Under the pieces are notes generated by a model. The model ran no database searches and was not told the origin of the DNA. It worked only from the letters and a program-made list of their open reading frames with translations. From positions 1 to 64,000 of the forward strand of contig PLBO01000063.1 of the NCBI GenBank assembly GCA_003134555.1: 64,000 bases of DNA, given 5' to 3'. Position numbers and translations under genes: made by a program. How positions within the stretch are numbered: the first letter of the stretch is position 1; every line of letters starts with the position of its first letter. The DNA comes from Actinomycetota bacterium. GTDB lineage: Bacteria; Actinomycetota; Acidimicrobiia; IMCC26256; PALSA-610. Below are positions 47,745 to 54,453 of this stretch, piece after piece.

Positions 47745-48239
47745 ATGACGATTGATCTCGCAGTGGTCCGGTTCGCACTCGGCTCGTTTCGCGCAACGGT
47801 CGACGACGGTGTGGTGCGGGGCGCGACGTTCGATCCGACGCCGCAACCGGTGCAGCGTGACCGGTTCGGTGTGCACGACGTGTTGGAGGCCTATTTCGCG
47901 GGCGACGTCGAGGCCATCGACACCTTGATGGTCGTGACGCGGGGCACGCCGTTCCAACAGGAGGTGTGGCGTCGGCTGCGGGAGATCCCGGTGGGCTCGA
48001 CGATCTCGTACGGCGAGCTGGCGCGGCGCGTCGGACGGCCGAAGGCGCAACGAGCGGTGGGGATGGCGAACGCTTCGAATCCCGTCGCCTTGATCGTGCC
48101 GTGCCACCGCGTGATCCGCACCGGCGGCGCGCTCGGCGGCTACGCGTTCGGCCTCGACTACAAGCGCTGGCTGCTCGCGCACGAGGCGAAGGAGCCGCCG
48201 CTGCTCGAAGGGTCGCTTCGTCAGACCGTGATCGCGTAG
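47745..48239 (+). CDS. ogt: Methylated-DNA--protein-cysteine methyltransferase
   Basis: 164-residue suicide repair protein removing methyl from O6-methylguanine. The acceptor Cys120 is in LIVPCHRVIRTGGALGGY, and the DNA-binding HTH with the arginine finger lies in ISYGELARRVGRPKAQRAVG. Length and the N-terminal beta-rich domain are typical. ATG 47745 was chosen from family length. Together with the divergent Ada-AlkA gene it forms a complete small adaptive-response locus (O6-meG and 3-meA repair). Confidence 0.94.
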   Translation: MTIDLAVVRFALGSFRATVDDGVVRGATFDPTPQPVQRDRFGVHDVLEAYFAGDVEAIDTLMVVTRGTPFQQEVWRRLREIPVGSTISYGELARRVGRPKAQRAVGMANASNPVALIVPCHRVIRTGGALGGYAFGLDYKRWLLAHEAKEPPLLEGSLRQTVIA

Positions 48240-48287
48240 GCCGACCACCTGCCGCGGCCGCCCGCGGGTCCGGTAGGTTCGCACGTG

Positions 48288-49577
48288 ATGGCGGCGCCGA
48301 ATCGACCGCGCGCGGCAGCCCCGGTGACGTTTCGCTGCCATGGGCATCCGCAAATCTCGGGGAGCCACACCAAGACCATCGAGCTCACGCGCGACGCCGA
48401 CGTGACCGGCCGCGCCACATGCGTGCTGGGGGTTCGCAGTGAGCACGACGATCGGGAGCTCGGGCGCCTGCGCGGCGACGTGGAGATCACGCTCGACTGT
48501 GCGGGTGTGCGCGACACCTTCACCGCCACGATGAGCGCCTTCTTTCTCGGCGACGACGCGCTCGTGTTCCGGCGCGGCCCGGGCCTGCGCGGTCGCACGT
48601 TCGCGTACGACGCGAACAAGAGCGCGGCCGACATAGACCGGAAGCTCGTCGGCGCCGTAGGCGATCCCACTGCTGAGTTGCAGGTGACGATTCGCGAGCT
48701 GGGCAGTGGCGACCGGCGCGGCGCGCTCTTCGTGGTGTCGGTCCCGATCGGCAACGACGACGACTTGTCGCCGCGTGCCCGTCGGGTGCTCGAAGCTGCC
48801 GACCTCGTCCTCGCGGAGGACACGCGTCGTTTCCGCGACCTGGCACAGCGGACCGGATTGCACGTCGACGGACGAGTGCTCAGCTATCACGACCACAACG
48901 AGGCGGAGCGCGCGAGCGAGGTGCTCGGCCAGCTCGAGCGCGGCGCGAGGGTCGCGCTGGTCAGCGACGCGGGCACACCGCTGTGCAGCGACCCCGGTTA
49001 CGTCGTCGTCAACCGTGCAGTCGACGCGGGCTTCGCGGTGAGCCCGGTGCCGGGTCCGTCGTCGCTGCTCGCAGTGCTGAGCGCGTCGGGGCTCGCAGTC
49101 GATCGTTTCACCTACGCCGGTTTCCTCCCTCGACGTTCGGCGGCGCGCCAGGCCGAGCTCCGTCGTCTCACCGAGCGCGGTGACGCGTTCGTCGTGCACG
49201 AGGCGCCCCGGCGGGTCGGCGGGTTGCTCGCCGACCTCGCGGCGGTCGGCCCGGAGTGGGAGGTGTGCATCGGTCGCGAGGTGACGAAGGTATTCGAGGA
49301 GTTCCGGCGCGGCACCGCGGCCGACCTCGTGGCCGAGTTGTCGGACGCCGACGACGCGCGGGGCGAGTTCACGATCGTCGTCGCGCCGCCCCAGGGGGTT
49401 CGAGGAGAGACGAGCGAGATCGACGCAGCCGCGGATGACCAACTCGATCGGCTCGTGCGCGCGCTGCTCGGCCAGGGTGTGACTCCCAAGACGCTCGCGA
49501 AGGCGCTGTCGGAGCTTCCCGGAATGAGCCACAAGCAGGCGTACGAGCGCGTGCTCGCGATTGCGAAGCGCGGATGA
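48288..49577 (+). CDS. rsmI: DUF371-like domain fused to RsmI 16S rRNA (C1402 2'-O) methyltransferase
   Basis: 429 residues, about 145 longer than normal RsmI. Residues 1-140 match DUF371, a family best known in archaea: VTFRCHGHPQISGSHTKTIE, DADVTGRATCVLGVRSEHDD, and near the end FAYDANKSAADIDRKLVGAV. From about residue 150 the RsmI/YraL fold begins: GALFVVSVPIGNDDDLS, LAEDTRRF, SDAGTPLCSDPGY and SPVPGPSSLLA, the SAM-binding and catalytic signatures. RsmI methylates the ribose of C1402 in helix 44. The ATG at 48288 (or GTG 48285) starts the fusion; no stop or gap separates the parts. Its stop overlaps the next methyltransferase start by 4 bp. Confidence 0.9.
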   Translation: MAAPNRPRAAAPVTFRCHGHPQISGSHTKTIELTRDADVTGRATCVLGVRSEHDDRELGRLRGDVEITLDCAGVRDTFTATMSAFFLGDDALVFRRGPGLRGRTFAYDANKSAADIDRKLVGAVGDPTAELQVTIRELGSGDRRGALFVVSVPIGNDDDLSPRARRVLEAADLVLAEDTRRFRDLAQRTGLHVDGRVLSYHDHNEAERASEVLGQLERGARVALVSDAGTPLCSDPGYVVVNRAVDAGFAVSPVPGPSSLLAVLSASGLAVDRFTYAGFLPRRSAARQAELRRLTERGDAFVVHEAPRRVGGLLADLAAVGPEWEVCIGREVTKVFEEFRRGTAADLVAELSDADDARGEFTIVVAPPQGVRGETSEIDAAADDQLDRLVRALLGQGVTPKTLAKALSELPGMSHKQAYERVLAIAKRG

Positions 49578-50239
49578 CACTGACCCGCGTCGTCGGCAAG
49601 GGCCGGACCTCCGAGATGCCGGCATCCGAGCTCGACGCGCTGCGCGGCGCGTACGTCAAGTGCGCGGTCGACGTCGGTACCGGCGACGCGCGCTTCGCGT
49701 ACCACCTCGCGTCGGAGCGTCCGGACTGGTTGGTGTTGGGACTCGACGCCCTCGACGAGCCGCTGGGTGAGATCGCGTACCGGGCCGCGCGCAAGGCGGC
49801 GCGCGGTGGCCGCCCCAATCTTGTGTTGCTGCGCGCCGCGATCGAAGCCTTGCCCGGCGAGCTCGCGCGCATCGCGGACGAGGTCGACGTGTTGTTGCCC
49901 TGGGGCGCCTTGCTCGAGGGCATCGTTCGCGCGCGTCCCCACGTGGTCGGCGGGATCGCGGCGCTCGCCCGGCCGGGGGCGCTCGTGCAGGTCACGCTCA
50001 ACGGCGAGATCTGGCTCGATTCGACGCCGGCGCGCTACGCGGACCTTCCGGTGCCGACGCTGGAGTACGTCGCCGAGGCGATCGAACCGGAGTTCCGCCG
50101 TAGCGGCATCGATCTCGGCCCGGCGCGCTATCTGACCGCCGCCGAGGCCAAGGGGCTGCCGACCACTTGGGCGCGCCGGTTGGGTCACGGCCGGTCCCAT
50201 CCGAGGTTCGTGCACTTCGAGGGCGTGCGCCGGGGTTGA
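49574..50239 (+). CDS. KamB/NpmA-like 16S rRNA (adenine1408-N1) methyltransferase
   Basis: 221 residues. It aligns by eye with NpmA/KamB: SAM motif AVDVGTGDARFAY (Asp33), Asp59 in LGLDALDEP, Trp110 in LLPWGALLEG and Trp199 in TTWARRLGHGR, which match NpmA Trp107 and Trp197 that clamp A1408, plus the basic RRLGHGRSH end. In producers and resistant bacteria these enzymes methylate A1408 in helix 44 and block kanamycin/apramycin-type drugs. Here the ATG lies inside the rsmI stop (ATGA), so the two enzymes for the same rRNA region are translated together. It could be intrinsic resistance or a housekeeping modification; sequence alone cannot decide. Confidence 0.85.
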   Translation: MTLTRVVGKGRTSEMPASELDALRGAYVKCAVDVGTGDARFAYHLASERPDWLVLGLDALDEPLGEIAYRAARKAARGGRPNLVLLRAAIEALPGELARIADEVDVLLPWGALLEGIVRARPHVVGGIAALARPGALVQVTLNGEIWLDSTPARYADLPVPTLEYVAEAIEPEFRRSGIDLGPARYLTAAEAKGLPTTWARRLGHGRSHPRFVHFEGVRRG

Positions 50240-53466: not shown

Positions 53467-53516
53467 TTGAACGCCCGGGAGGTCAGTAGGGACCTCGTCT
53501 ACACTTGTCGCCTCCG

Positions 53517-53589
53517 GCGCTCGTAGCTCAATGGATAGAGCATCTGACTACGGATCAGAAGGTTGGGGGTTCGACTCCCTCCGAGCGCG
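53517..53589 (+). tRNA. tRNA-Arg (anticodon ACG)
   Basis: 73 nt. The acceptor arm pairs GCGCTCG with CGAGCGC; D-arm AGCTCAATGGATAGAGC; anticodon stem TCTGA/TCAGA with loop CTACGGA (anticodon ACG, read as ICG after deamination); T-loop GTTCGACTC; discriminator G. CCA is not encoded. TACACT about 12 bp upstream may be the -10 box. A hairpin follows at 53597. Confidence 0.97.
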
Positions 53590-53596
53590 CTGAGTT

Positions 53597-53631
53597 GGTG
53601 CAGGTCAGAGCCCATATGGGCTCGCCGCACC
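53597..53631 (+). terminator. Terminator hairpin after tRNA-Arg
   Basis: GAGCCCATATGGGCTC is a perfect 16-bp palindrome, and GGTGC/GCACC forms an outer stem around it, starting 8 bp after the tRNA end. The unusually symmetric core and position fit transcription termination of the tRNA gene. Confidence 0.6.
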
Positions 53632-53811
53632 TTCGCCAAACCGGCCTGCTTGCTAACGGTTGCTCACAAGCGGTTCGTCTGATCGCGGAACACCCCGCGC
53701 AGCAGCTCCACCAAACGAACCTGACGACGACGAGAGATCACGCGAGCGTCCACGCCATGTCTCTACCCGAGCTACCAGCGGGCGGTTCGGGAGCAACGAA
53801 CCCAGGCCGGG

Positions 53812-54453
53812 TCAGAGCCAACCTTCTTTGGTTGCACGCAGTGCCGCCTCGACGCGGTTTCGGACCTGGAGTTTCCGGAAGATCTCTTGGATGTGCGACT
53901 TCACCGTGTTCTCGCTGAGATGAACCCTCGACGCGATCTCTCGGTTGGAGAAACCCTCGGCGATCAAACGGAGAATCTTGTATTGGCTGTCGCTGAGCTG
54001 CGCGTGCGGTTCGGTCGACTCCTGCTTGGCTGGTGCGCCGCGCAGCCGGTCGAGGACCTTGGCGGCCACCGCGGGCGAGACCGCGCCCTCGCCTCGATAG
54101 ACAGCACGAATGCTCTCCTTGAGCGAGAACTGTTTGATGTCTTTGATGACGTAGCCCTTGGCGCCGGCCGAGATGCATTCGTGGACCAGCTCGTCGTCGG
54201 AGTAGGTCGAAACGATCAGCACAGCCGCTTCTGGATGAGACGCGGCGAGCAGCCGGGTGGCTTCGGGCCCACTGATTCCGGGCAGCCGTGCGTCCAGGAG
54301 CACGACATCGGGACGGGCGTCGTCGACGAGCGCGACGATGCCGTCTGCCGAACCGCTCTCGGCAACGACATCGAAGTCCTCTTCGGGCTGCAGGATGGTG
54401 CGGAGACCTTCGCGGACCATCTCGTGATCGTCGACGATCGCGATGCGGATCAC
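53812..54453 (-). CDS. NarL/DevR-type response regulator
   Basis: 213-residue two-component regulator. The receiver domain has Asp8-Asp9, the phosphorylation site Asp54 in VLLDARLPG, Thr83 in VSTYSDD and Lys104 in YVIKDIK; the LuxR HTH is at about 148-213 with LSDSQYKILRLIAEGFSNRE and SENTVKSHIQEIFRKL. Its GTG start overlaps the histidine-kinase stop (GTGA), so kinase and regulator are a coupled pair. In actinobacteria GAF kinases of this type sense oxygen, NO, redox state or light; the signal here is unknown. Confidence 0.95.
   Translation of the reverse strand: MIRIAIVDDHEMVREGLRTILQPEEDFDVVAESGSADGIVALVDDARPDVVLLDARLPGISGPEATRLLAASHPEAAVLIVSTYSDDELVHECISAGAKGYVIKDIKQFSLKESIRAVYRGEGAVSPAVAAKVLDRLRGAPAKQESTEPHAQLSDSQYKILRLIAEGFSNREIASRVHLSENTVKSHIQEIFRKLQVRNRVEAALRATKEGWL

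Follow-up and report, generated by a model that had tools for sequence, protein, structure and literature searches.

We found that a gene for a fusion of DUF371 with the 16S rRNA methyltransferase RsmI overlaps a gene for a KamB/NpmA-type methyltransferase in a member of the class Acidimicrobiia, and that DUF371 and kamB genes are neighbors in four lineages of this class, in four different arrangements. The recurrence of the pairing in rearranged form suggests that the two proteins work together, and we regard a functional link between the two genes as likely. Both enzymes belong to known families; it is their recurrent linkage that is new here. In the open-access literature mentioning KamB, RsmI, RlmH or DUF371 (subscription literature lay outside the search) we found no description of this unit.

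A DUF371-RsmI fusion gene overlaps a kamB-like gene

Coordinates are positions in the window, by which we mean the whole 64,000-nt stretch of contig PLBO01000063.1 that was analyzed, and both genes are on its + strand (Table 1). The start of the first gene at ATG 48288 is supported by the sister species, with a GTG also present at 48285. That its product joins DUF371 to RsmI, as an earlier note on this DNA had proposed, was borne out by profile searches: the DUF371 match exceeds its Pfam gathering cut-off, and the RsmI equivalog model TIGR00096 scores 182.2 bits (cut-off 167.9). The residues reported for E. coli RsmI are D100, A124, F144 and R174 (PMC5053481). When the fusion protein is aligned with solved RsmI structures, three of these are identical (D236, F280 and R310 in a 430-residue count) and the other, A124, is replaced by S260; this mapping assumes that the numbering is shifted by 17, a value deduced from chain length. 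An AlphaFold2 model of the fusion, made from a three-row alignment, had a mean pLDDT of 45 and was set aside.

Table 1. Coordinates and basis of the features at the locus.
Feature	Position	Strand	Basis
DUF371-RsmI fusion gene, 429 aa	48288..49577	+	Profile searches; sole RsmI found in window genome
DUF371 domain	48333..48695	+	PF04027, aa 17-137 (counted from 48285); 62.2 bits, cut-off 25
RsmI TP_methylase domain, key motifs intact	48726..49328	+	PF00590, aa 148-348 (counted from 48285); 99.7-100.2 bits; aligned with solved RsmI structures
RsmI C-terminal HTH domain, weak	49425..49562	+	PF23016, 11.9 bits, under cut-off 27
ATGA start/stop overlap of both genes	49574..49577	+	Sequence; comparison with sister species
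KamB/NpmA-type 16S rRNA (A1408-N1) methyltransferase gene, 221 aa	49574..50239	+	PF24675 and solved relatives CacKam, KamB, NpmA
SAM motif VDVGTGDAR	49667..49693	+	aa 32-40
Trp110 codon	49901..49903	+	Aligns with CacKam W113
Trp199 codon	50168..50170	+	Aligns with CacKam W203

The second protein matches PF24675 (NpmA) with 216.4 bits against a gathering cut-off of 60, in agreement with the family named in the earlier note, and its best solved-structure relatives are CacKam and KamB. The SAM motif and the two tryptophans predicted to clamp A1408 are also present, as reported there, and the CacKam counterparts of these tryptophans, W113 and W203, are both essential (PMC4705659). Loss of D36, R43, D61, R73, E94, W113, W203 or R206 in CacKam abolishes resistance (PMC4705659), and by alignment all of these residues are kept in the window KamB, the SAM-pocket acids (D36, D61, E94) and the basic docking residues (R43, R73, R206) being identical. 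The positions of CacKam S201/S202 are Thr/Thr, and two tolerant positions, R66 and K115, have different residues. Judged from these residues, the enzyme very probably methylates A1408, a modification that makes cells resistant to kanamycin, neomycin and apramycin (PMC4705659). Near the window kamB we recognized no aminoglycoside producer context.

The window genome (98% complete) contains one strong NpmA match and one RsmI, both at this locus. Of the four genomes available for the genus, three have the pair, and the other has a contig that breaks off within rsmI. Across the three species the proteins are conserved (identities of 88/82% and 91/80%), the 4-bp ATGA overlap described in the earlier note is kept in the two sister species, and dN/dS between species is 0.14-0.20, alike for DUF371, RsmI and KamB, so all parts of the pair are under purifying selection. 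Neither KamB nor DUF371 was found in any of ten other sampled genomes of the family. We rejected chance adjacency in one assembly, because the pair is common to three sister assemblies and to three further families.

We did not count two neighboring genes as part of the unit. The upstream gene ending at 48239 (Ogt-like by eye) is not a neighbor in sister species G002 and G003, and the downstream UppP-like gene follows kamB in G001, with a different, perhaps broken copy in G003. This G003 copy (L077 1133-2071, G003:C195) seemingly consists of two reading frames, unlike those in G000 and G001. A promoter and terminator scan at the locus gave nothing useful. Elsewhere in the window, a long ORF at 53505-53918 runs across a tRNA-Arg gene (53517-53590) and probably encodes no protein.

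The linkage recurs, rearranged, in three further families of the class

The earlier note had called for a search for adjacent rsmI and kamB-like genes in other genomes. We surveyed the same 395 genomes of the class for both proteins and found DUF371 in seven and KamB in nine. In six of the seven DUF371 genomes KamB adjoins DUF371, and the seventh is the window-genus contig that ends inside rsmI. The overlap between the two sets of carriers has P of about 1e-10 counted by genomes, or 1e-7 by genera, in a plain count that ignores relatedness. Descent of the linkage from one ancestral block would inflate this association; only four lineages are known. Beyond the window genus, where the genes overlap head to tail, the adjacency occurs in three further families of the class, represented by genomes G343, G204 and G327. 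In G343 the genes for DUF371-RsmI, RlmH and KamB all run in one direction; in G204 RlmH overlaps KamB and the DUF371-RsmI-like gene is convergent; in G327 the DUF371-RsmI-like gene and KamB are divergent, about 60 bases apart. Since these arrangements differ, the adjacency has outlived rearrangement. The families of G343 and G204 have few members in the collection, and family-level searches around these two genomes accordingly found no further DUF371 genome.

RlmH, the methyltransferase for 23S rRNA Psi1915, a site close to the decoding centre (PMC5430550), was found in two of 66 class genomes tested, both times within the KamB locus (L089 9395-9871 and L090 9695-10147), and is absent from the other 64. 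The window genome has none.

In a sample of 396 genomes from the phylum, DUF371 occurs only in the window genome, and among control genomes only in archaea. KamB was found outside the class in five genomes of two families, with no DUF371-like gene recognized in the KamB contexts that were opened there. One family of the class likewise has KamB and lacks DUF371. Family f10 (L078, L079 and L080; G039, G033 and G022) has a divergent KamB (29-33% identity) without DUF371, located in all three genomes between genes resembling ribB and pdxH (named by eye). In family f73, KamB-like genes are interrupted in frame near codon 16, by TAG in L099 (G421:C958) and by TAA in L100 (G434:C257), with one TAA near codon 16 reported in L088 (G407:C337). 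The stop is at the same codon in G421 and G434, where dN/dS is about 0.26 before it and 0.34 after it (purifying selection on both sides), and no in-frame ATG, GTG or TTG was seen from the stop up to the SAM motif. The stop may reflect readthrough, re-initiation or early decay.

DUF371 on an RsmI-like body is the constant partner of KamB

The earlier note read the locus as a module modifying both C1402 and A1408. The link between the genes held up in all four lineages, and C1402 methylation as its constant feature did not: G204 and G327 each have a separate normal RsmI, and their DUF371-fused copy has lost its match to the methylase domain. Over its full length, the fused protein of G204 nevertheless aligns with the window protein (hhalign probability 98.8); it lacks the PIGN...EDTR part but retains a weak RsmI C-terminal match (20.9 bits). 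That of G327 can be aligned over DUF371 and a little further. All six aligned proteins have the DUF371 signature GHP...H...E...C without variation. As far as the sequences go, the constant partner of KamB is thus DUF371 on an RsmI-like body, rather than C1402 methylation, because this protein adjoins KamB even where another gene can serve C1402. In the window genus and in G343 the fused RsmI is the sole RsmI, and for this reason the window-genus fusion should make Cm1402.

The fused RsmIs of the window genus and G343, which belong to different families, form one clade (support 100/99), and a tree grouping the window genus with three RsmIs of its own family was rejected (AU P = 0.008). A source outside the family is therefore probable for the fused RsmI, which would have replaced the native one, with the caution that both fused rows are long branches in this tree. 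For KamB, a single clade of the DUF371-linked proteins was neither shown nor rejected (AU P = 0.10).

Proposed function and alternatives

We put at about even the chance that the locus is a chromosomal decoding-site (A-site) modification module, probably for drug protection, with a dedicated partner protein. The KamB-type enzyme would dock on the 30S subunit and methylate N1 of A1408 in helix 44 after flipping this base between its own two tryptophans, and the resulting m1A1408 should shield the A site from kanamycin-, neomycin- and apramycin-type drugs. DUF371-RsmI would be its dedicated partner, in the window genus also making Cm1402. DUF371 on its RsmI-shaped body most likely binds the same helix 44 region or the same 30S face, and it may help or time the action of KamB, or let subunit maturation proceed with m1A1408 in place. 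We hold this accessory role somewhat tentatively, and slightly more so its fullest form, in which a DUF371 protein built on a scaffold derived from RsmI, in some cases without catalytic activity, would dock on helix 44 to enable or gate the KamB-type methylase, and with RlmH would make up an island of three genes acting on both faces of the helix 44 / helix 69 contact. CacKam is active in E. coli without a DUF371-type partner (PMC4705659) and other families have KamB without DUF371, so DUF371 is not required in general; as KamB enzymes elsewhere work alone, the partner would be an addition of this lineage.

The foreign origin of the fused RsmI within its family and the patchy distribution of KamB would also fit a horizontally moving rRNA-methylase island, in which kamB, DUF371-rsmI and sometimes rlmH travel together without joint action and drug resistance is the selected trait. 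We consider this rather unlikely, because the adjacency is kept despite reshuffled order and orientation, the pair is stable in the genus, pseudo-RsmI bodies are retained, and searches of 72,556 plasmids with both proteins gave no match. Less likely again is that the fused protein is a compensating RsmI, able to make Cm1402 on m1A1408 subunits where the housekeeping enzyme is hampered. Helix 44 resistance methylases do interfere with RsmI and RsmF, but the reported block of RsmI was by ArmA (G1405), whereas NpmA blocked RsmF (PMC12406665). Being the sole RsmI in the window genus and G343 suits the fusion to such a task; against it, the methylase core is missing from the fused copies of G204 and G327, and these genomes, like genomes of f10, f71 and f73, have a normal RsmI as well as KamB.

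We find it improbable that m1A1408 is a constitutive decoding adjustment, native to the genus and tuning fidelity or stress tolerance instead of conferring drug resistance. Conservation under purifying selection in the three sister species with a complete locus agrees with this idea, as does the reported effect of KamB on fidelity and acid tolerance in E. coli, but no other sampled genus of the family has KamB, and 386 of the 395 class genomes lack it, so it has no housekeeping role common to the class.

Aminoglycoside resistance due to KamB-type enzymes is very high and is treated as determined by a single gene. If the modification module with its conserved partner is real, it would help explain permanent m1A1408 in environmental bacteria. 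The linkage also provides a clue to the role of DUF371, a domain conserved in archaea whose function is unknown, and an example of RsmI apparently turned pseudoenzyme while still adjoining another decoding-site methylase.

Comparison with known systems

The fusion resembles RsmI in scoring above the equivalog cut-off and in keeping the SAM and RNA residues. It differs in its N-terminal DUF371, in having PIGNDDD where most relatives have PIGNLGD, in its place in a clade apart from the family's own RsmIs, and in lying outside their usual surroundings, which in the four family genomes opened have the order rsmI, metG, tatD, rsmA (genes named by eye). DUF371 itself has a beta-barrel fold of unknown function (PMC4256011). 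With archaeal DUF371 (MTH639, PDB 3cbn) the fusion shares the GHP...H...E...C signature and a second conserved half, but the archaeal proteins of solved structure are stand-alone, with 151 and 137 residues.

TlyA-type modification targets the same region near the decoding centre, at the helix 44 / helix 69 contact. RlmH and TlyA are similar to KamB and RsmI in the region they target, and RlmH is present in two of the related loci, but the enzymes and sites differ, and the window genome has no RlmH. The closest known systems are CacKam, KamB and NpmA, with which the window KamB has in common the fold family, SAM motif, two clamp tryptophans, basic helix 44-docking residues and length. It scores low with the allele-specific NCBIfam models (self_KamB, 164 of 350), and it differs from all three in being encoded with a DUF371-RsmI partner.
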